Shown piece by piece: positions 6,426 through 57,825 of a stretch of DNA of 64,000 nt. Origin of the DNA: Norana najaformis (taxonomy: Eukaryota > Annelida > Clitellata > Crassiclitellata > Hormogastridae); the NCBI GenBank assembly GCA_964023275.1, contig OZ029915.1, forward strand, positions 34,964,573-35,028,572, given 5' to 3'. Every line of letters begins with the position of its first letter. Position 1 is the first letter of the stretch. The position numbers and the translations under genes are program-made. Below the pieces are notes generated by a model that was not told the DNA's origin, made no database searches, and saw only the letters and a list, made by a program, of their open reading frames with translations.

Positions 6426-7042
6426 TCAGTGTGTTGCCTTCTCTGCCCTGCACTTGATCCCGGAAGGGCAAATGGCGCCATTTAGGGCTTCAGTTGTTAT
6501 AAGCGATTGATAAAGTTGTGGTTGTTGCACAGTTGATGCTCCAAGTGATTATTCTGTAGCTCTGACATGTTGTCCAAATTATAAACTTCACTGAACTTAT
6601 ATATGCCTTCCATATGTTTCTCCAAGATAAATTTAGATTTTTAGCTCTGATTGTAATTGTATAGAATATTGTTAGTACAGCTTTACACATCTGTTAAAAC
6701 CAGTTTTCACTCCACTGAAGCGTGCAAACGAGTGTTCAGTGTCTTTGCATAGACCAAAAATTACACAAGAGGTCCATTATCACACGTTTCATTACAACAC
6801 GATTTCTGATATAAAATGGTCAGGACGTAGATCCCATAATTTTTTCAACCATGGAAAATAGTCGAATTGCAGTACGGTCTCGTTATAACAGGGTGCTTGT
6901 CGTGGCTTCCAAAGACAGCGTTACAATGAGTTGTGGTGTATTGTGAGCCGTATTTCGGGTCTTTGACTGTACTGCGAAAAGGAAACCATCAGTTTGCAGA
7001 ATGGAGCGAATATAATCTTTCAAAATGATGCAAGATGCATCG
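6426..7042. other. no gene seen
   Basis: Short open frames only and no domain signal. This DNA separates the LINE fragment from the 86-bp satellite. Confidence 0.5.
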
Positions 7043-8160
7043 CTTTACAAAATTCGTTAATCCGAAATAACTGGTCTCAGGGAAGTCTAGAAGGATTCGT
7101 CTGAACAAATAAGCAACTGCCAGGGATGCTTTATAAAATTCATTAATCCGAAATAACTGGTCTCAGGGAAGTCTAGAAGGATTCGTCTGAACAAATAAGC
7201 AACTGCCAGGGATGCTTTATAAAATTCATTAATCCGAAATAACTGGTCTCAGGGAAGTCTAGAAGGATTCGTCTGAACAAATAAGCAACTGCCAGGGGTG
7301 CTTTATAAAATTCATTAATCCGAAATAACTGGTCTCAGGGAAGTCTAGAAGGATTCGTCTGAACAAATAAGCAACTGCCAGGGATGCTTTATAAAATTCA
7401 TTAATCCGAAATAACTGGTCTCAGGGAAGTCTAGAAGGATTCGTCTGAACAAATAAGCAACTGCCAGGGATGCTTTATAAAATTCATTAATCCGAAATAA
7501 CTGGTCTCAGGGAAGTCTAGAAGGATTCGTCTGAACAAATAAGCAACTGCCAGGGATGCTTTATAAAATTCATTAATCCGAAATAACTGGTCTCAGGGAA
7601 GTCTAGAAGGATTCGTCTGAACAAATAAGCAACTGCCAGGGGTGCTTTATAAAATTCATTAATCCGAAATAACTGGTCTCAGGGAAGTCTAGAAGGATTC
7701 GTCTGAACAAATAAGCAACTGCCAGGGGTGCTTTATAAAATTCATTAATCCGAAATAACTGGTCTCAGGGAAGTCTAGAAGGATTCGTCTGAACAAATAA
7801 GCAACTGCCAGGGATGCTTTATAAAATTCATTAATCCGAAATAACTGGTCTCAGGGAAGTCTAGAAGGATTCGTCTGAACAAATAAGCAACTGCCAGGGA
7901 TGCTTTATAAAATTCATTAATCCGAAATAACTGGTCTCAGGGAAGTCTAGAAGGATTCGTCTGAACAAATAAGCAACTGCCAGGGATGCTTTATAAAATT
8001 CATTAATCCGAAATAACTGGTCTCAGGGAAGTCTAGAAGGATTCGTCTGAACAAATAAGCAACTGCCAGGGGTGCTTTATAAAATTCATTAATCCGAAAT
8101 AACTGGTCTCAGGGAAGTCTAGAAGGATTCGTCTGAACAAATAAGCAACTGCCAGGGATG
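7043..8160. repeat. 86-bp satellite, 13 tandem copies
   Basis: The unit begins CTTTATAAAATTCATTAATC and ends GCAACTGCCAGGGATG; 13 copies fit the interval exactly. Copies look almost identical, except that the first has two differences near its start and the penultimate motif is GGGATG or GGGGTG. In order the variant bases read A A G A A A G G A A A G A, so copies 3-7 and 8-12 share the pattern G A A A G. That suggests a 430-bp (five-unit) block duplication. The array leaves unique DNA at GCGGCATCAG on the right. No coding frame is maintained. Confidence 0.95.
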
Positions 8161-9301
8161 CGGCATCAGTGGGGCAACTTATTAAAACTCACTTCCCCTA
8201 TCAGAGAAATTCATATCTGGATTACGCTCATAGAGAATAGAAACATTGTTCAAACTTTTGAAACGTGAAAAGTTATAACTTCATATATTGTTAACTACCT
8301 TGCTCCGTCTCTATAAACGCGCAGATTGGCGCTCTGTATGCTTCTGAAGAAAATGTAAAAGTGCACCTTTTTTTCTATAGCGACCGTACGGCCTCGATCC
8401 TTCAATGAATTAATCATCAAGAATTATTATCATAGGCTTATTTTTTCAGTTGGTATGTGCTCATTTATGAAATACCTGCAGAGGCTGGCAGGCAGGCAGG
8501 CAGCCACTGGCGCCACAGACAAAACACGATCCGAAAAACTCATTCGTATCATTATTTGAAGATATCGCGATCTTGTGATTAAGTCGTGCTTTTGAGAGAG
8601 AGAGAGAGAGAGACAGACAGAGACAGAGACAGAGACAGAGATAGAGACAGAGAGACAGAGAGACAGAGAGACAGAGAGACAGAGAGACAGAGAGATTTGC
8701 ATTTCAATATGGAACCTAATTAAGTTTTACCTGCATATTAGGCTGTACCCATGAATATTAGAAAATACGACTGCAAGAAAGATGAATCCACTTTGAACAG
8801 GTAGCAAATTCGGTGACATATAGGCATAACCTGTGCGAATTTTAGAGTCGCCAGACGAGAATTATAATTGGCACCACAGGGTTTTAGAATTTTCGAAATC
8901 TGTTCTGTCTGTCCAATGATTAGAATCCTTATGCGCCAGAGCTCTTTGAGTTTCATTAACGAGACATATTAGCACTTGTTCAGATATTTCGCCGATTTTC
9001 AACAAAGTTCGTTAAGCTCTGTTTGCGATGTCCAGTGCATAAAGTTACAGAAAAGATGTCCAGACGTTACCTTCAGCAGCTCTTTCTAAATTCCGTGTCT
9101 ACCGAGAGACGTCTGAAGTCGTCGACGAAGGGGTGCTGCTGATTTCAGTAGACTACTTGAATAAATGTTCGCGAACATGTTTCACTGCACGGGCTGCATA
9201 CGTCAACTGCTGACGGCTGGTAGGCATATAACGTGGTTCCTACCTATTCGCAGTGTTGTTGTAGTTCGGCTTTGCCACGAGGCCTTCTATTCGCACAAGC
9301 A
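8161..9301. other. spacer between two tandem arrays
   Basis: No gene is supported. It holds a fragment near 8372-8410 matching the SINE-like family at 13985-14150, a GA/GACA microsatellite (8596-8697) and otherwise unremarkable DNA. Confidence 0.5.
8596..8697. repeat. GA/GACA microsatellite
   Basis: GAGAGAGAGAGA passes into ACAGACAGAGACAGAGACAG and then regular GAGACAGA units. The open frame on the minus strand (SLSLCLSVSLSL) is a by-product of the repeat. Confidence 0.9.
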
Positions 9302-9810
9302 GTCGGTCGGTCGGTCGGTCGGTCGGTCGGTCGGTCGGTCGGTCGGTCGGTCGGTCGGTCGGTCGGTCGGTCGGTCGGTCGGTCGGTCGGTCGGTCGGTC
9401 GGTCGGTCGGTCGGTCGGTCGGTCGGTCGGTCGGTCGGTCGGTCGGTCGGTCGGTCGGTCGGTCGGTCGGTCGGTCGGTCGGTCGGTCGGTCGGTCGGTC
9501 GGTCGGTCGGTCGGTCGGTCGGTCGGTCGGTCGGTCGGTCGGTCGGTCGGTCGGTCGGTCGGTCGGTCGGTCGGTCGGTCGGTCGGTCGGTCGGTCGGTC
9601 GGTCGGTCGGTCGGTCGGTCGGTCGGTCGGTCGGTCGGTCGGTCGGTCGGTCGGTCGGTCGGTCGGTCGGTCGGTCGGTCGGTCGGTCGGTCGGTCGGTC
9701 GGTCGGTCGGTCGGTCGGTCGGTCGGTCGGTCGGTCGGTCGGTCGGTCGGTCGGTCGGTCGGTCGGTCGGTCGGTCGGTCGGTCGGTCGGTCGGTCGGTC
9801 GGTCGGTCGG
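9302..9810. repeat. perfect GGTC tetranucleotide array, about 127 copies
   Basis: GTCG/GGTC repeats run without any visible interruption for 509 bp. Because the unit length is not a multiple of three, all plus-strand frames read as Val-Gly-Arg-Ser repeats and all minus-strand frames as Pro-Thr-Asp-Arg repeats. No stop codon occurs in any of the six frames. The overlapping long open frames are therefore artefacts, not genes. There is one CpG every 4 bp, and GG doublets every 4 bp could support two-tetrad G-quadruplexes. Confidence 0.97.
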
Positions 9811-16228: not shown

Positions 16229-16446
16229 ATTTGCAGTGTGTAGTAGATGTACACATTTGCGGTGTGTAGTGGATGTACACATTGCGTAGTGTAGTAGATG
16301 TACACATTGCGGTGTGCAGTCGAGGTACACATCGCGGTGTGTGGTCGAGGTGCACATTGCGGTGTGTAGGCGATATACACATTTGCGGTGTGTAGTAGAT
16401 GTACACATTTGCGGTGTGTAGTAGATGTACACATTTGCGGTGTGTT
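16229..16446 (-). repeat. short inverted arm of the 26-bp minisatellite
   Basis: About eight diverged units of the form TGTACACATTTGCGGTGTGTAGTAG, the reverse complement of the main array to the right. Units vary in length (some lack a T) and in sequence, so this arm is more decayed than the main array. The junction with it is a short non-repeat segment at 16447-16472. Confidence 0.9.
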
Positions 16447-16472
16447 GTCGAGGAACTCAATCCGCAACGTTT

Positions 16473-18480
16473 ACATCTACTACACACCGCAAATGTGTAC
16501 ATCTCCTACACACCGCAAATGTGTACATCTACTACACACCGAAAATGTGTACATGCACTACACACCGCAAATGTGTACATCTACTACACACCGCAAATGT
16601 GTACATCTACTACACACCGCAAATGTGTACATCTACTACACACCGCAAATGTGTACATCTACTACACACCGCAAATGTGTACATCTACTACACACCGCAA
16701 ATGTGTACATCTACTACACACCGCAAATGTGTACATCTACTACACACCGCAAATGTGTACATCTACTACACACCGAAAATGTGTACATCTACTACACACC
16801 GCAAATGTGTACATCTACTACACACCGCAAATGTGTACATCTACTACACACCGCAAATGTGTACATCTACTACACACCGCAAATGTGTACATCTACTACA
16901 CACCGCAAATGTGTACATCTACTACACACCGCAAATGTGTACATCTCCTACACACCGCAAATGTGTACATCTACTACACACCGCAAATGTGTACATCTAC
17001 TACACACCGCAAATGTGTACATCTACTACACACCGCAAATGTGTACATCTCCTACACACCGCAAATGTGTACATCTCCTACACACCGCAAATGTGTACAT
17101 CTACTACACACCGCAAATGTGTACATCCACTACACACCGCAAATGTGTACATCTACTACACACCGCAAATGTGTACATCCACTACACACCGCAAATGTGT
17201 ACATCTCCTACACACCGCAAATGTGTACATCCACTACACACCGCAAATGTGTACATCCACTACACACCGCAAATGTGTACATCTACTACACACCGCAAAT
17301 GTGTACATCTACTACACACGGCAAATGTGTACATCTACTACACACCGCAAATGTGTACATCTACTACACACCGCAAATGTGTACATCTACTACACACCGC
17401 AAATGTGTACATCTACTACACACCGCAAATGTGTACATCTACTACACACCGCAAATGTGTACATCTACTACACACCGCAAATGTGTACATCTACTACACA
17501 CCGCAAATGTGTACATCTCCTACACACCGCAAATGTGTACATCTACTACACACCGAAAATGTGTACATCTACTGCACACCGCAAATGTGTACATCTACTG
17601 CACACCGCAAATGTGTACATCTCCTACACACCGCAAATGTGTACATCTACTACACACCGCAAATGTGTACATCTACTACACACCGCAAATGTGTACATCT
17701 ACTACACACCGCAAATGTGTACATCTACTACACACCGCAAATGTGTACATCTCCTACACACCGCAAATGTGTACATCTACTACACACCGCAAATGTGTAC
17801 ATCCACTACACACCGCAAATGTGTACATCTACTACACACCGCAAATGTGTACATCTACTACACACCGCAAATGTGTACATCTACTACACACCGCAAATGT
17901 GTACATCTACTACACACCGCAAATGTGTACATCTACTACACACCGCAAATGTGTACATCCACTACACACCGCAAATGTGTACATCTACTACACACCGCAA
18001 ATGTGTACATCTACTACACACCGCAAATGTGTACATCCACTACACACCGCAAATGTGTACATCTACTACACACCGCAAATGTGTACATCTACTACACACC
18101 GCAAATGTGTACATCTACTACACACCGCAAATGTGTACATCTACTACACACCGCAAATGTGTACATCTACTACACACCGCAAATGTGTACATCCACTACA
18201 CACCGCAAATGTGTACATCTCCTACACACCGCAAATGTGTACATCTACTACACACCGCAAATGTGTACATCCACTACACACCGCAAATGTGTACATCTCC
18301 TACACACCGCAGATGTGTACATCTACTACACACCGCAAATGTGTACATCTCCTACACACCGCAAATGTGTACATCTAATACACACTGCAAATGTGTACAT
18401 CCACTACACACTTCAAATGTGTATATTTACTACAAACCCCAAATGTGTACATCTATTACACACCGCAAATGTGTACATCT
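16473..18480 (+). repeat. 26-bp minisatellite, about 77 copies
   Basis: Units of ACATCTACTACACACCGCAA + ATGTGT repeat with exact 26-bp spacing (16473 to 18475 is 77 x 26). The usual variants are CTAC/CTCC/CCAC, and CCGAAA in place of CCGCAA. The last four units are visibly decayed. Three units (78 bp) encode the same 26-residue repeat in every plus-strand frame, so the three overlapping open frames of 659-771 codons here are repeat artefacts. Confidence 0.96.
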
Positions 18481-18503
18481 ACTTCTTCTTCTTCTTTCTT
18501 CTT

Positions 18504-20632
18504 TTATTCTCCTCCGCCAGGCCAACAGGCCAACGATGAGGCCTCAACTTGTCGTCTCCAGGCACTTCTGTCTCTGGTTTTGTCCACCGCTTCCCTCATA
18601 TCCATGTTCCACGCCTTCGGATCTTCCCTTATATTGTCCATCCAAGTTTTTGGTTGTCTTCCACGGCTTCTTGTACCTTCTACATAACTATACATCGCCA
18701 TAGCCGGAAGTCTCCTGTCGTCCATTCTTGATACATGCCCGAACCAAGAGAGCCTTTTTTTCCTGATCCTGTCTACTACTGTATCCTTCAGCCCGAGCTC
18801 CCTGCTTATTACTTCGTTTCTGATCCTGTCTCTCCTGCTTTTGCCCAGCATTCTCCTCAGCGAGGCCATTTCTGCCACTAGCAGTCTCCTCTCGTCCTCC
18901 CTGCGCAGGCACCAGCATTCTGCTACGCACAGCAACACCGGGATGACAAATGATTCGTATAGCTTTTTCTCAGTTCTTATTGATATCTCTTTGCTTCTCC
19001 ATATCTTGCTTAATCTGCCGAACATCGCGCACGCCAAGCCAATCCTGCGTCTGATGTCTCTTGTACATTGTCCGTCTTCCGTTATAACGCTCCCCAGATA
19101 TACGAACTCTGTCACTTGTTCCAGGGTCCCACTCTCCAGTTTGACCTCCAGGTTCTCCTGCCTTTTCCCAACGGTCATTGTTTTGGTCTTTTGCGCGTTG
19201 ATTTTGAGGCCCAATCTTTTGCGGCTCTCGTCCACTCTGTCCGTCAGCTCCTGAAGATGGGTCGGTTTCTCCGCAACCAGGTCTATGTCATCCGCGAATC
19301 GTAGGTTGTTTAGGAGCCGCCCATTCACCATGACCCCGGCCTCGGTAGATCTCAGTGCGAGGCTCATAACTGCCTCCAGCAGCAGGTTGAATAGATACGG
19401 CGACAGTCCACAGCCCTGTCTTACTCCCACCTCCGTCTTAAACCATTCTGTTAGTTCCCCATCCACCTTCACTGCACTAAGCGATTTGCTGTACAGATCT
19501 TCCAGCAACTCTACCAGGCCTTCCGGAACCCCGTAGCTTCTCAGCACCTGCCACAGCCCCTGCTGCCACACGCTATCAAAGGCCTGTCTGAAGTCAATGA
19601 AGTTATTATACAAGATTTTGTTCCTTCCGAAATATTTCTCTGATAGTTGTCTAACCACAAATAATTGGTCTACTGTGCTTCGGCCAGCTCTGAAGCCCGC
19701 CTGTTCTTCTGCCACCACCGCCTCCACATGCCTCTTCAGACGCTGCTGCAGTATCTTGGTGTATACCTTCCCTGGGTTACTTAGCAGGCTAATTCCTCTG
19801 TAGTTTCCACATTCAGTTCTATCTCCTTTCTTGTGGATAGGGACAATAACTGCCTTCCCCCAGTCTGCTGGGCATTTTTTCTCTTGGCAAATTTTCCTGC
19901 ATAGCATGTGCAGCATCTCGGTCGAGCAGTCCCCTCCCGCTTGTATCATCTCTGCCGTGATGTTGTCCTCTCCCGGCGCCTTCCTTTTCTTCAGGTTCCA
20001 TATGGCTGCCTCCACCTCATCTCTAAGTATGTCCTCCATATTCTCCTGGTTATTACAGGCTGGCAGTTCTCTTAGTACTGTGCTATCTACTGGGTTTTGT
20101 TCGTTATACAGTGCTTCGTAATATTGCTTCCATCTCTGTTTGATCTCCTCTTTGTTCTCCAGCAGATTTCCGTTCTTGTCTTTTACTGCTGTCATCTTTA
20201 TTTTAACCGTGCCGCAGATTTCCCCTACCACCTGAAACAGCCTCCCAGCATTCTGCCCCTTCGCGTTATCTTCAACCTCAGTGCACTTCTCCTCCAGCCA
20301 CCGTTCTTTGCATCGCTTCACCTTCTTTTTGATCTCATTTGTTATCTTGTTATATTTTTTCCTGTTTTCCTCGCTGTGGGCTTTTGTTGCTCTCATGTTT
20401 CTTCTCTGATCGCTCAGATCCAACACTTCCTTTGAGATCCATGGTTTATGCTTCTGCTGTTTTCTGTATCCTAGTGCCTGCTGTGCCGCTTCCGTATAGG
20501 TGGCTTTGACCTCTTTCCATATCTTCTCTACCGTGTCCAGACCACCCGTGTTGACCTGTTTCCATCTATTGTCTATCAGTGCACTGTATTTGTGCCTGAT
20601 GCCTTCTTCTTTGAGCTCAAAGAAGAAGCTCA
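18504..20632 (-). CDS. LINE ORF2 fragment: reverse transcriptase and C-terminal domain
   Basis: This frame is uninterrupted. The linker (KAPGEDNITAEMI) precedes the RT fingers, with a block NYRGISLLSNPGKVYTKIL. Motif A reads FIDFRQAFDSV and motif B reads VGVRQGCGLSPYLFN. The catalytic FADDIDLV lies about 245 residues after KAPGED, and EFVYLGSVITEDGQ follows. The C-terminal part has WFGHVSRMDDRRLPA and RSRGRQPKTWMDNI, and the frame ends WPGGGE. The layout fits RTE-like non-LTR elements; clade assignment is by memory of motifs, not a search. The endonuclease domain and the true start are absent. Upstream of about 20632 the frame continues into host DNA by chance. RT motifs look intact, so the insertion may be fairly young, but alone it should not be mobile. 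Confidence 0.88.
20603..20628. repeat. perfect 26-bp palindrome at the LINE 5' junction
   Basis: The 13-bp half-site CTTCTTCTTTGAG is followed directly by its exact complement. A further CTCAAAG leads into the right target-site copy. This kind of fold-back and microhomology is expected at some 5' ends made during target-primed reverse transcription. Confidence 0.7.
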
Positions 20633-20635
20633 AAG

Positions 20636-20648
20636 AATGAATTTTAAT
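20636..20648. repeat. target-site duplication, right copy
   Basis: AATGAATTTTAAT, identical to 16064-16076. Confidence 0.8.
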
Positions 20649-21008
20649 AAATAGTGCCTGATCAAAACTATTATGATATCTGTTACACTTGATTTGCATC
20701 CTATCAGAGTTTCCCAATTGGCCACGTTCACTGGGCCTTCAACTGGCCTGCACTTTGCTGCTGGTGGTAAGTGGTGGCCAGATGTGGGCCCAATGTTGAT
20801 CCAACACATGTGGCTTTGTCCATCCATGAAAAGCCATGATTAAATAATTATATGCTATAGGGCTATACTGTACGTCGGCCCTCCATTTCTCTTCTTTGTC
20901 AATAATCTCTTTGGGGTCAAGTGACGGGATAAACAGATTTGAAGACAATTTTCCTATAAATTTTAAAGGTCTTCGTCGCTGCAATACACGCTGGCCTTAA
21001 AACAGGCC
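20649..21008. other. spacer with one possible orphan exon on the minus strand
   Basis: On the minus strand TGTATTGCAG|CGACGAAGACC (acceptor, exon from about 20979) opens a frame of about 45 residues that contains KFIGKLSSNLFIPSLDPKE and EEKWRADVQYSP. GTACAG or GTATAG near 20870 could serve as donors. I do not recognise it and found no partner exon. It could be chance or an unrecorded mobile-element piece. Confidence 0.25.
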
Positions 21009-27712: not shown

Positions 27713-27935
27713 AGCTAGCCCGGAGAGGCACTATGGATATGAAGTGTTGCAATTTTATTTTCTTAGCCTCAGTATATGAGGGCAGGTGGCCGGCCCTCTC
27801 CCTCACCTCCTGATCTTCCCACTGACAGTGTTTGGTCAGTGTACCCATTTTTGTGGAGTTGTCTGGGGCACAAGGAGAGCCGAAATCTCGAAACAAATTC
27901 TGTCCTGGCAGGGATGTTCCCAAGGCCAAGGTTAC
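27700..27935 (-). mobile_element. SINE body, copy related to 43745-43995
   Basis: It shares CCTTTAAGCTAGCCC-GAG, TTTTCTTAGCCTC-G-ATATGAG and GGGGCACA-GAGAGCCGAAATCTCG with the copy at 43.8 kb. Here the tRNA-like head is missing or decayed after about 27925. Confidence 0.6.
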
Positions 27936-29650: not shown

Positions 29651-32600
29651 ATGACACTGAGAAGACCATCTGAAGATCTCAGTCTCTGTACGGACATGGC
29701 ATCGGATTATATATACATCTTCTGCATCCCATCATCATCAGGTTCCAGACTGTCGACATCTGAATATTGTGGTGCCGGTCCTAGCATCGAACTGAGCAGT
29801 GATTCGCTACTCTATGTCCCAACCGAGACCAGTGCAATGTCTGAAGAACCACTGAACTGCCCATTATATAACAACACTGACTGCTCAGGCGCTCATGGTC
29901 AGTCTAACAACAGCCACCCAGCTACCCCAGCCACCAGGAACCACCAATCAAGTGAAGACCAGTGCACAGCAGCAGTCGAGGGTGTGTCCGATAACCGTGG
30001 CGATCTTCTTTCGCCACGAAGTGTAGAGGTTCAGAGCCCGGTGAACTGCAGTCTGCGTCATTCAGGAGCCTCAGGTATGTGCACGCTTGAATTATCTCCA
30101 GCCATGCTGACACCTGACTCACAGGACGTGCTAATGCCCACCGGTGATGGTTTTCAGCTGAGGACGGAGTCATGGTTTGCCCTTCCGCCGTACAGTCCTG
30201 CGGTCCCACGAACCTCCATGAGACGGAACATCCGTCGCAGTGCACGCATCAACCTCGACGGCTCACGGTGTGCTCGTCGTTCGAGACGCACTGGTCACCT
30301 GTTCCTTATCTCGACTAGTGAGGAGGGTGATAAACAGTGCTGTAGCCGTTCATGCTGTCTACATTTTCTCATGGCAATCACATCATTCCGCTGGATACTC
30401 TTGTTCTTCGCTTTGATTGGAGTCAGTTGTATCATATCTGGAATAGTGCTTGGGTCACTTCATATGGCTGTTGGCAATAGTTTTCTGACTCTGTCGATCA
30501 TGTTTATTGGTAAGATTTACTTTTTTATTCCTTTAAATTAGAAGGTGTTTAGTTTTTCTTCCCAGGTAATTAGTCAGGTGGTAAAGTTTTTCAAATTTAA
30601 AATATGTGATTTGCAACTCTGTAGTGAAGCATTGTTTAAGCACTATCCCTTACCTTTTTCATTTGGCTTATCCTTCATAGGCTGCTTCTGTTTTATTGAA
30701 CTGACTTTCTGGATATTGACCTGAGTGGCTTGATTATTTGTGCAGCACTGGTTGACGTCTTGTGAATTAGACACAGGCACTATAGAAGTTGCAAATTACA
30801 ATTACTGTTTCTGACATCTCTGTCTTGTTTCAACCAAACTGTTAAATTTTTTCAGAAGGAAAAGTAGAGAATTGCAGTTCAAAGCATTTGGTCAGTCAGT
30901 TGCATTTTAAAGCATTCTCCGTTCTTCCAGATATTTAAAAAATTAATTGCAAGGTAATATGTATTTGAATCACGTTGTTTGCCATTTTAAATGTAAATCT
31001 GGATATCCAGCTCAAGTTGTCTGTATTTTGAGGGCAGACCTAAAATAATGTCATATGGCTTTGAAGAAATATGTAGGGTGTATTTTTATGAGAAACTGTT
31101 ACTGAAACTGAGCAAAAATTCTAAATATTTACAACATGTTACTGACTTGAAACTGTGGGAAATATATGGAGAACTATTTGCATTTTCTGTTATTGTATAT
31201 TTAACTCCTCTTTTTTCACTTGGTGACTTTTGCTATTTGAATTTATGTAATGACTTTGATGGGCACACAAGGCATCAATCAATGATATTCTGTATTAAAA
31301 CTGTTGATTGATGCCAGCAGTAGAAATTATTAGCTTGTAATTATGAAGTCAACATCATCACTGTCCATGGCCCATAGGTAGGTGTTAGGTGGTAGGTGTT
31401 AACTGTTTAATTAATCTTTGATCAATTAAATAGTTGTTGCACTGATTACTTGCATGATATATGAACTCTGATTTTACCAAGTTATAATATATTCCTACAA
31501 ATACTGTGATTGCATAATAATTCTAGGGGAAAAATTAGAATATTAATGTTTATATTAATTGCATAGTTTATTATGCATTTAAATCTTCTTCAGCTTTCAG
31601 TTACTCTCATGTATTAGATTGTATCAAGTTGCTTCATCTATACTTTGCAGTTTAATTTTGTAATTCCTTCCTTATAGCTGTATTAATTTTATGTGTTTTC
31701 TGTATTCATAGGGCTTGGAGTGCTCCTGGTGGTTGTAATTGGGATAGGTTGGCGATGTACTCCATCCGGACATGAGCCGTGCCACCTGCTGTTTAATCTC
31801 GGTGATCATTTGCTGCGTACATCAAGCACCAGAGATAGACATCTAAGACGCCTGCGTCATCACAATGGTGATCACAATCAGTGGTTTGGAGGTTAGTAAA
31901 GCAGTATGGAAAATAAAAAAAAACTTGCTAACAAAGATCATTCATTCGTTTGATTGTAGTTCTTGTTAATGAATGAGCTGATTAGATGATCGTTAACCAT
32001 GCACACCTGTTTTGTTTGCAGATACAAAAGTGAGTAAGCTAGTGGTGGGTGGCCTTCTTTTTTTTTAATAGTATGTGTGTGTTAATTAGTAGAGAATAGG
32101 CAGAGGATTGGATGCATTTAGTTAGCACCAAGTCGTAGTACAGTAGAACTGATCAACGTTACAGTTGTACTTTAATAATATTGTGGAATGGCCGAGTGAA
32201 CTGCTCTTCTGAAGATTTGTACTGAATGGCACGCACTGTCAGCTACAATTTCCAATTAAACTTCAGTATTGCGGATACTTAAGTCAGTTTTGCATCAAGT
32301 ATTCAGTGTTCTTCCTGATACTATTCCCTCACCGTCAACGAAAAATGTTTAAGCTCAACTGGTCTGCTTCTTACAGAAGAATTGCTTAAGGCTGCTACTG
32401 TCACTTTTTCTTCATTATGTACACATGTGCGTTCATGCCTAGGCATACCCTTGTTGCCTGCATGCCTGTCAATTCTTGGTAAAATTATTTGGACAACCCA
32501 TACCAACACACCAGTTGTGACATTCCTATCACCCTTCATGAATAATCAGCTACCACAAGATTGAGTATAATTATATACATATATTAATTCTTATTACCCT

Positions 32601-33735
32601 AATTAATAAATAATTAGTTACTAATTAGGGTAATAAGAATTAATATATGTATATAATTATACTCATATCATCATTAGTCTTTTATCAGTCAGTAAGTAAA
32701 AAGGAGGATACTAAATATTCTCACAGTTTCCGCAGTACAGCAAGAAGCTTTGCTGGTTCTGGGTAGAATTGTACAGACAGTATACTTCAAGAGCCTTTCT
32801 TTGACCATGTTCCATCAGCTGCTAAAAGTAAAAGTTTGATGGTAATAATTTGCAGTTAGATTATTTGCACAATGCTTCATTGTATCAAATTCTGGTTATG
32901 CATTAAGAAAACTAATTTTTCTAATGTCCTGCAGCTGTAGTTCATCTAGTTGAAGGCTGATTTTTATGACTGTGATTGTGCGGGATCCTTGTGTAAATAT
33001 TTTATTTCGCTGGTACCCAAAACTATAGGAACTCATTGTCTCTGTTTAGGAGTGATTTATCCAGAGTTTGAATATCGCACACCTCCACCGTCATACAGTG
33101 ACTCTGTGCAAGATCGTCGCCAAGTGCAACACTGTGCCACAGTTCATTCCGCTGGTGTTGGTCCTGTTCTTCCTGATTCCCCACCGCCTGCTTACCGATC
33201 TGAGACCGGTACCTTGTACACTGGTGCACATGCGGTTTTGCCTCAAAATAGTGAAGTTTCACAACCACCAAGCTATCGCCGACACAGTCACCGACGTATG
33301 CCATTGGCAAGCATCACCACAGAAATGGTCCCCACAGGTTCATCTGGATCCCCGGTGAACTTAGATGCGGTTCGCAGTGACTTGGATGAAACAGGAGACC
33401 AGCTTAATGAAGCAGTTGTGAAAGTTCTTGCTTCTGGCAGACATCATTTGGCTCAACGTTTGAGTGAGAGAATGGCAGACAAAGATGTCCAGACAGTTCA
33501 GTTGTCCTCTGCTCAGCAGTATTTAACACCAGTTTCTGTGTCATCTTCTGACACTGACTTGTCAGCACATCGTCCTTTGTATCAAACAGATGAATCCTGG
33601 CCTAGTGGAGTAGAATTTTCTGTTGCTCGGTCTGTTGCCATAGTTACCGTAGCTACTGACACAAATACCGATTGCAGTGAAGATGATGTTACAAGTGTAA
33701 ATAGTGACCATTTTACGATTGATATTGCTGTTTAG
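29651..33735 (+). CDS. two-pass membrane protein with three PPxY motifs (three exons)
   Basis: Exons are 29651-30509, 31712-31891 and 33050-33735. The junctions TTG|GTAAGA / TTCATAG|GG, GAG|GTTAGT / TGTTTAG|GA keep phase 1, giving 574 residues. Residues 1-235 are a long polar N-terminal part with SP/TP sites and an Arg-rich stretch (about 190-215). A Cys cluster (CCSRSCC) precedes TM1 (about 248-270). TM2 (about 276-300) spans the first junction. The C-terminal region carries PPSY (359-362), PPAY (392-395) and PPSY (419-422) and is otherwise polar. PPxY motifs bind WW domains, typically of NEDD4-family ubiquitin ligases, so the protein may be an adaptor or substrate for membrane-protein ubiquitination. 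Two close helices plus C-terminal PPxY resembles vertebrate TMEM174/TMEM171 layout; homology is not shown. The alternative start is Met16. Exon structure is well supported, function is inferred. Confidence 0.8.
32563..32664. repeat. perfect palindrome, 43-bp arms, 16-bp loop
   Basis: The left arm 32563-32605 begins GAGTATAATTATATACATAT and the right arm 32622-32664 is its exact complement. The loop is ATAAATAATTAGTTAC. It lies in intron 2 of the PPxY gene. It may be a tiny foldback element; no target-site duplication is obvious. Confidence 0.95.
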
Positions 33736-40082: not shown

Positions 40083-41265
40083 TCATGACCTGCAACCGAA
40101 GAACAGGGAAAGAGTCACTGTCACCATAGCAGTTACTATGGAAATCTTTGCCATGGAACCACTATTGCAATTATCAGTTGAGCACGTGTAGATGCAGGCA
40201 CGATATATACGGTTGTGATCGGCATAGGTAACATACTGACAATGGTGGAACATGTCTCTGGAACTACAGAACCTAGTTGTGCCAACAACACCTAAAACAT
40301 GAAGTGAAAATATAATTTCATTTTCATTAGCTATGAAATATTTGAGAACAAAAAAGACTAAAAAAATTTTTAGTGGTTTAAATATAACATATTCCAAAGA
40401 AATACAATTTCATTTCAGTTGATTAAAATCAACTTTACAATGATTTTCACAAAATCAACTGTTCACTTCATTTTCATACACAGCTCTTCATCTTAACACT
40501 CCTATTTCCCTACAGTATATAGAGATTTATCCTGTACACATGGTTTGTCCCTAAGCTAAGTCTTCATCATAGACTCGTGTCCCCAAATTTTACCTAAGAC
40601 CGCTTCAAATGACCTATTGGGCAATCTCTGGCACCTCTTCATAAATTGGCCAACTTTGAACTTGCTTACCCACTGCAGCCTAACTTCTGGTTTCTCTGCA
40701 CACAGGGTTTGTCCCCTAAGTTGTTATCAGGAATATAGGAAATCAACCTGTATTCTCCAATAGATTATGATTTTAATTTCACTTGAAGCGACCATCAACT
40801 ATGCCTTGCACATTATTATAATGGCACTACAAAAGTCATCAGACTACATTAGGTACATATCTGCAGAATTCGTAATGAATTTATGGGCTTTGTTGGACCC
40901 TTCTCTTTCATGAGCATCTGCAGTCAGATTTTTCCAGCTTCTTGTACTCACGTTTTTGAGGTGAATTAATCAACTAATCTGACATAGATTTCTAATTATT
41001 AATAATAATAAAAAATATAATAATAACTATTATTATTATTATTAATTACTAAATCATAATTAATAATAATGCCAACAAGGCAATGAAACTAAAATGGCAT
41101 GTCACTCACCTCCCCAGACTCCAGTTGTTTTAATGCAGTATCTCGCAGCATCAACAGTACAGTCTGTTGGGCGAATGGTTAACTGATCCAAATGTTCCCA
41201 GTCAAAGTTCTCCTTGCAGTCTGGATCAGTGGAAGAGTCACACTGATAACACTGCAGCCCAAACC
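40083..41265 (-). CDS. Ly6/uPAR (crok/quiver-like) GPI-anchored protein, last two exons
   Basis: Exons on the minus strand are 41110-41265 and 40083-40291. They join GGGGAG|GTGAGT to TGTTTTAG|GT in phase 1. The mature domain begins GLQCYQCDSSTDPDCKENFD and continues through DCTVDAARYCIKTTGVWGG. The last exon has GTTRFCSSRDMFHHCQYVTY and ends the domain at YTCSTDNCN. This gives ten cysteines in the spacing of the three-finger fold. The CYQC start, the KTTG..GG..GT.RFCSSRD block and CSTDNCN are typical of invertebrate crok/quiver-type Ly6 proteins, which act at the cell surface or in the secretory pathway, for example in septate-junction assembly or channel regulation. A hydrophobic C-terminal tail after SGSMAK fits a GPI signal. 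The signal-peptide exon should lie upstream (right of 41265) but I could not find it. Confidence 0.85.
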
Positions 41266-41324
41266 CTTCAAAACAAAACAATAATTACATAACAAATTAT
41301 GATAAGAGGCCCCTTTCGAAGTGT

Positions 41325-41645
41325 TTAAGATAATCATAATCGTAATTGTAATATCAAGATTTCTACAGCACCCAACGAAAGCTAAGTCGTGGGAACCAGC
41401 TTATTCACAGGCATTCAGTCAAAACAAAATCGATAGGCAAAAGGGTTCAGTTCCAGGTCAAGATCCAGGAGTCAGATAGTCAGATGACTATAGTGGATAG
41501 TGTTTGAAATTTAAGGGAAAAAGAGAGATACAGGGAAGAGGAAGGATCAGGATAAGATTTTTGGAAATGAAATGTTTTTAGTCTTGAGTAAAAGACCAGT
41601 GCAGAAACTGAAAGAGGTGAAGTGTTGTGTTTTAGCTCCATTTAA
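41325..41645 (-). mobile_element. CR1/L2-like LINE 3'-end fragment in the Ly6 intron
   Basis: Typical tail (ATCATAATCGTAATTGTAAT on the plus strand), then AAGATTTCTACAGCACCCAA, AATCGATAGGCAAAAGGG and the interior block GCAGAAACTGAAAGAGGTGA. It ends within 10 bp of an inverted copy of Ly6 exon sequence. Confidence 0.7.
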
Positions 41646-41649
41646 GAGG

Positions 41650-41701
41650 TTATCAGTGTGACTCTTCCACTGATCCAGACTGCAAGGAGAACTTTGACTG
41701 G
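41650..41701 (+). repeat. 52-bp perfect inverted copy of Ly6 exon sequence
   Basis: Plus-strand 41650-41701 (TTATCAGTGTGACTCTTCCA...AACTTTGACTGG) is the exact reverse complement of 41198-41249, inside the Ly6 exon that encodes CYQC...NFDW. The two copies lie 400 bp apart in opposite orientation, with a LINE 3' end between them. The copy is in the intron upstream of the exon in transcript order. Confidence 0.95.
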
Positions 41702-56670: not shown

Positions 56671-57613
56671 ACCCTTAAGCCATATCAACAAAGGCCAAAA
56701 AACAACAATATTGAAACTAGCTACAATTATGTATCAAGAGATTCATCCAAAAAGTCCAGAACATGTAACTCACCATCTTTACTACCAAACTGTATTATTC
56801 ACATGAAAACATCACTTACAGAATCTAGAGAAATAATTAACAAATCTTAAAATAAATTGCTAAACTGTTAAAGCATGATCATTATTTCCAACTGATGTCA
56901 TAAAAGGTAATTAATAAGCTTATAAACTCAATTAACATTTGTGATTACAAAAATCAGTAATGCAGCTTCAATCTACTGGTAAATCAGAGCTAGAAAATCT
57001 AGCTGAAGCAGCCGATCACACAGAACTTTCATCCGAACTTCAATCAGTTCACCACAAGCACACAGAAGTTGAAGCATCTTTCAGTTGGCATGCTTATCAG
57101 AATCCCATTTGAAAATAATTACGATATTTTAACTAAAAACAAGTCTATACAGATGTCAAAAACTGCTGAAACTGTGCTAGCAACTGGGTTCTTACACCTT
57201 TCTATCTCGGTTTGCCTGCGCTTGTGAAACTAGCAGTTTGAGCTAAATGATGGAAGTTAACTGGAAGCAAATAAGACAACAAACTTGTGGAATGTGTAGA
57301 AAAAGTTAGACAACAGAAGGAGATACAAATCACATACAACTTATAAAATTAATAAATTTAAGAACAGAAATATGACAGTTAACTTAATGGCACCAATTGT
57401 TATTAAGAACATATATTTGAAGAGTAAATTTATCACACGAAGACCCTTTTGAATATTTGTTAATACTCTGTTGAACGTTTGCAAGCTACTTCCATGCTAC
57501 TGAGTCGATTACAAATGATCCTGCTTAGTTTTACACTACAATCCATTTAATATAATGGGTAATTTAATTAATTACCTATTCAATACATGCGTAAATAATG
57601 CATTTTCACATTT
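56671..57613. other. no gene seen
   Basis: AT-rich intergenic DNA 3' of the sphingosine kinase gene. Confidence 0.4.
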
Positions 57614-57825
57614 CCCAGTTTTGATGACGTCATTCCTACACTGCCAAATAATCCAGGAGCGCCCACCAATCACAAAAACTGGATACTTAAAAACTGCACA
57701 TCTTACATTTTGCAATTTTCCCAGTTTTGATGACGTCATTCCTACACTGCCAAATAATCCAGGAGCGCCCACCAATCACAAAAACTGGATACTTAAAAAC
57801 TGCACATCTTACATTTTGCAATACT
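57614..57825. repeat. exact 106-bp tandem duplication containing TGACGTCA
   Basis: Copy 1 is 57614-57719 and copy 2 is 57720-57825. I see no differences between them apart from the final junction. Each includes CCCAGTTTTGATGACGTCAT and GGAGCGCCCACCAATCAC. TGACGTCA is the consensus CRE/ATF site and CCAAT appears nearby, so each copy resembles a small promoter or enhancer module. Overlapping short open frames are shadows. Confidence 0.93.

Follow-up and report, generated by a model that had tools for sequence, protein, structure and literature searches.

Short-range template switch mutations leave an exact reverse-complement copy of a nearby sequence, and a single such event can generate a perfect stem (Walker et al. 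2021, PMC7954356; Monttinen and Loytynoja 2022, PMC8794818). In the gold-standard set described for great apes, the copied length had a median of 12, rising to 128 at most, and the events were enriched in introns (PMC7954356). Templated insertions ascribed to MMBIR likewise carry sequence copied from nearby DNA (PMC8421209). At the RNA level, the editing-complementary sequences described for insect ADAR pair with coding exons from outside them (PMC5705066), and the reverse complementary matches described as promoting back-splicing are found in the two introns flanking an exon (PMC8330042).

Here, a stretch of 64,000 nucleotides from the annelid Norana najaformis (contig OZ029915.1; the whole stretch is referred to as the window) was analysed, in which 53 bases of a Ly6 coding exon recur in inverted orientation upstream of that exon. 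The inverted copy was probably made by a recent short-range template switch, that is, as a templated insertion, and this kind of mutation is already known.

The inverted repeat and its Ly6 exon

The two arms of the repeat, the source arm at 41198-41250 (minus strand) and the inverted copy at 41649-41701 (plus strand), are reverse complements at 53 of 53 bases (100%) and stand 398 nt apart. BLAST paired them with an E value of 6.49e-21. The original prediction of an exact reverse-complement pair was borne out, but its length of 52 bp and start at 41650 are to be corrected to 53 nt and 41649. For the search of inverted pairs nine stretches were masked, mostly tandem arrays but also the AT-rich 41000-41060 among the nine. 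The masked window then contained four exact inverted pairs of at least 14 nt with a spacer of at most 1.5 kb (arms of 53, 44, 15 and 14 nt), the 53-nt pair being the longest. Of ten sequences simulated by a first-order Markov model, 4 contained a single pair and the others none, and no arm exceeded 15 nt. The 53-nt pair is far beyond chance, and the repeat is a real feature of the given sequence.

The source arm is located inside exon 2 (41110-41265, minus strand) of a QVR-family Ly6 gene, in agreement with the Ly6 coding position claimed for it. Two cysteine codons are complete within it, and of the cysteine codon before them it includes two bases. The exon was recognised by its frame, by its splice motifs (acceptor TTTTGAAG/GG and donor GAG/GTGAGT) and by Pfam QVR. 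It joins in frame with the last exon, which was traced up to the stop codon (40083-40291, minus strand), and together they encode 120 residues followed by a stop. The joined exons 2 and 3 matched Pfam QVR (PF17064) with an E value of 2.6e-12 and 48.0 bits, exceeding the curated Pfam cut-off of 27.3 for membership of the family, and the match covered 118 of the 120 residues. The frame of exon 2 alone reached 31.1 bits.

The inverted copy is positioned upstream of exon 2 in transcription and therefore probably in intron 1. Its claimed location in the gene's own intron thus stands as to the upstream position, whereas the intron 1 label is only probable, because exon 1 was not found and may be located outside the window. 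A scan for a signal peptide followed by a donor gave 0 candidates under strict settings and 31 under loose settings, and none of the 15 listed among the latter was convincing. A protein-query scan of genome contigs matched a pattern in 21 stretches with 0 confirmed, and a 39-base exact pattern was found in 0 stretches of viral contigs. Neither search yielded a relative, near records of the window's own genome possibly being left out of both. In the window, Rfam gave nothing at gathering scores and ARAGORN no tRNA.

Several other repeats were observed in the window. The second-longest inverted pair (44 nt, 32562-32665, 16-nt spacer) is an AT-rich palindrome and possibly a small palindromic element. 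Among the tandem repeats, a 106-bp unit at 57611-57822 is perfectly duplicated (100% matches), apparently also a very recent local duplication, and the tetranucleotide GTCG is present in 127 perfect consecutive copies at 9302-9810. An 86-bp unit is repeated 13 times at 7042-8161 (99% matches) and a 26-bp unit 77 times at 16472-18483 (96% matches). The latter array is open in three plus-strand frames and is preceded by approximately eight inverted copies of the 26-bp unit at 16229-16445.

The LINE-like element between the arms

The spacer contains a 5′-truncated 3′ fragment of a repeat (41331-41627, minus strand) with an ATTACG-type tail, one of 11 aligned copies in the window. In 9 of the 11, the alignment extends to a common 3′ region whose tail is of the TTAC or ATTACG type; the two at 44 kb and 63 kb end before it, and the 5′ start points varied. 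This combination of a shared 3′ tail and variable 5′ starts suggests a LINE-like repeat, putatively a LINE. The element has minus sense, its 3′ tail pointing toward the exon and its truncated 5′ end toward the inverted copy. The element can be recognised up to 41627, a limit that the copies at 48.7 kb and 21.3 kb share (the latter at 19 of 19 bases), and one diverged copy aligns as far as 41628. Between the element and the inverted copy there are thus approximately 21 bp of non-element sequence (41628-41648). The original prediction had a LINE 3′ end between the arms, within 10 bp of the inverted copy; an element is present between them, but the gap is about 21 bp and it is the 5′-truncated end that faces the copy.

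The octamer CTAAAACA at 41628-41635 matches CTTAAACA at 41322-41329, adjoining the element tail, at 7 of 8 bases (both read on the minus strand). The two, noticed by eye and with their letters checked, may be the 5′ and 3′ copies of an 8-bp target-site duplication of the element, or may match by chance. The T at 41330 is either situated between CTTAAACA and the tail or is part of the tail. Another candidate for a target-site duplication, AACACTTC, was dropped, as its bases belong to the element and are present in the copies near 21.3 kb and 48.7 kb. Elsewhere in the window, an open frame of 744 residues (18504-20738, minus strand) gave a match to the reverse transcriptase domain RVT_1 of Pfam (E 1.9e-38) and is probably that of a non-LTR element.

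Compared with the majority of the other copies, the element differed at 34 of 266 sites (7 of them among the 20 at CpG, 27 among the 246 elsewhere), a figure that subfamily structure may inflate. In the comparison with the copy at 21 kb, at least 13/294 changes were private to the element, 12 were private to the 21-kb copy and 17 more were unassigned. The inverted copy differed from its source arm by 0 changes in 53 bp. At the rates of the element, the probability of no change in 53 bp is 0.0007 for all sites, 0.002 outside CpG and 0.09 for private changes only, and this range depends on how the age of the element is estimated. Since the element is diverged and the copy unchanged over 53 bp, a copy younger than the element is favoured, though not proven. 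The recent origin proposed earlier is the simplest reading of the identity, with conversion between the arms, which would likewise keep them alike, as a possible alternative.

Origin of the inverted copy

The copied stretch is wholly within the exon and takes no account of its borders, which is what copying blind to gene structure should give. When 25 bases on each side were compared by eye, the flanks of the inverted copy matched neither those of the exon nor each other, and no target duplication or poly-A of the copy's own was seen in them. A single chimeric join is unlikely to have yielded a copy with both flanks unlike those of the exon, and an mRNA retrocopy is unlikely given the same flanks and the lack of a target-site duplication and poly-A.

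We infer from the exact copy and its flanks that a short-range template switch took place. The DNA upstream of exon 2 would have been undergoing copying, or a break in it would have been under repair, when the growing strand shifted to the opposite template, onto the exon close by. There 53 bases would have been copied in reverse orientation before the strand returned to its original template. The unspliced RNA would, as a by-product, become able to form a perfect stem of 53 bp between the upstream sequence (probably intron 1) and exon 2, and the inverted copy itself is probably neutral. Polymerase-theta repair also yields templated insertions.

What is found at the locus is what such a switch would produce, a reverse-complement copy (53/53) of a sequence 398 nt away. 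A separation of 398 nt seems long for template switches, for which about 93 nt is more typical. If the element had entered the spacer later, the earlier spacer would have been approximately 93 nt (80 + 21 - 8), but the copy would then be older than the element, at odds with its lack of changes. The 53 copied bases are many, yet in range, because the maximum in the described great-ape set is 128 (PMC7954356). Both the direction and the date of the switch we infer from a single sequence.

Perfect identity of the arms and a single assembly as source would also suit an artefact of assembly or library, in which case the inverted copy would be absent from the genome of the animal. This is unlikely, as the flanks on both sides of the copy are unlike those of the exon, so that two false junctions would be needed and not one. 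Also, for the 40 bases to the right of the copy, matches elsewhere in the window had E values of 0.37 or more (of the 40 bases to the left, 19 belong to the element). Unsplit reads give palindromes with long arms and a very short spacer, unlike the pair found here.

The original prediction instead suggested template switching during retrotransposition of the LINE. The cDNA would then have left its RNA template, at the 5′ end of the insertion, for the exon strand close by. The 5′-truncated end, where such a switch is expected, does face the copy at a distance of 21 bp, and the lowest age estimate leaves a probability of 0.09 for an unchanged copy. A direct join to the 5′ end of the element was, however, not found. 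This origin is disfavoured, and we regard it as very improbable: some 21 bp of non-element DNA, including the possible 8-bp target duplication, intervene, and the element is apparently older than the copy (34/266 and at least 13/294 private changes against 0/53; P from 0.0007 to 0.09).

Predicted RNA pairing and comparison with known systems

The minus-strand RNA from 41760 to 41100 was folded, with a predicted energy of -220.5 kcal/mol; shuffling the upstream arm in 20 versions gave a mean of -160.6. In the predicted structure the arms had a mean pairing probability of 0.999, and the splice acceptor was located within the loop, where it was partly paired. The proposed pre-mRNA duplex around a loop bearing the acceptor is therefore in line with the very strong pairing predicted. 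Splicing competes with RNA folding, and the stem might mask the exon, promote editing or give rise to siRNA; an effect on the RNA of the gene is a possibility only.

The proposal of a circular RNA, in its usual form, is not favoured, because the rule described requires pairing of the two flanking introns (PMC8330042), and one arm of the 53-nt pair is inside exon 2 and not in a flanking intron. Between the introns flanking exon 2, only one weak pair was listed (27 nt, 70%), and the longest exact complementary words, with the upstream region taken to 43000, were 11 nt.

The duplex might be under selection, in that the upstream arm masks the exon or serves as an editing-complementary sequence, or in that the stem feeds siRNAs that tune the gene. 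The energy and pairing probability given above would agree with this, and editing-complementary sequences, as described, form dsRNA with edited sites (PMC5705066). In addition, fly quiver is reported to be strongly edited in its QVR domain, where an S to G change reaches 100% in one or both of the two motoneuron populations (PMC12634045). Editing is for this reason worth testing at the Ly6 exon, the two genes being compared by their common Pfam domain name and not by orthology. A recent accident, however, also leaves a perfect stem, and selection on the duplex appears highly doubtful. Slimmer still is the chance that one copying slip gave the Ly6 exon a newborn perfect dsRNA switch, which would act by editing, exon masking or siRNA and be caught before its decay. 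The copy as an antisense exon was rejected as chance: its plus-strand end is donor-like (G/GTATGT; counting this site, 38 of the 3814 GT sites on the plus strand score as high or higher) and the plus-strand frame from 41636 is in Ly6 phase, but the would-be acceptor, whose AG ends at 41635, is mediocre (equalled or exceeded in score by 779 of 3969 AG sites), and among plus-strand Ly6 matches by tblastn (E up to 10) the only strong one was the copy itself, followed by 33200-33247 (E 0.26, 16 residues, 44%), 32106-32246 (E 5.0) and 27853-27918 (E 7.2).

The recent short-range template switch, if real, would be a clean and young case in which a copying error has covered a coding exon with a perfect RNA stem, and the protein family concerned includes fly quiver, an editing target. 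One could then test directly whether accidents of this kind change splicing or editing as soon as they arise. The interest of the locus is modest unless RNA data show an effect.

The locus shares with the described short-range template switch mutations an exact reverse-complement copy of a nearby sequence, here probably intronic, and the possibility of a perfect hairpin (PMC7954356; PMC8794818). It differed from them by a copied length of 53 (great-ape median 12, maximum 128), by a spacer that is now 398 nt, by a coding exon as template and by a direction assigned from one sequence. Like the MMBIR templated insertions described (PMC8421209), the insert was seemingly copied from nearby DNA, here in inverted orientation. 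Junction microhomology marks MMBIR, and the comparison made here concerns the inserted sequence. As in the editing-complementary sequences of insects, a coding exon has a pairing partner that lies outside it; the pairing is here predicted, and the repeat is known from one sequence, whereas the several hundred insect sequences described were predicted from sequence conservation (PMC5705066). Finally, the locus resembles the described back-splicing matches in having complementary stretches around a splice site, but those are found in two flanking introns, whereas one arm is here within the exon (PMC8330042).
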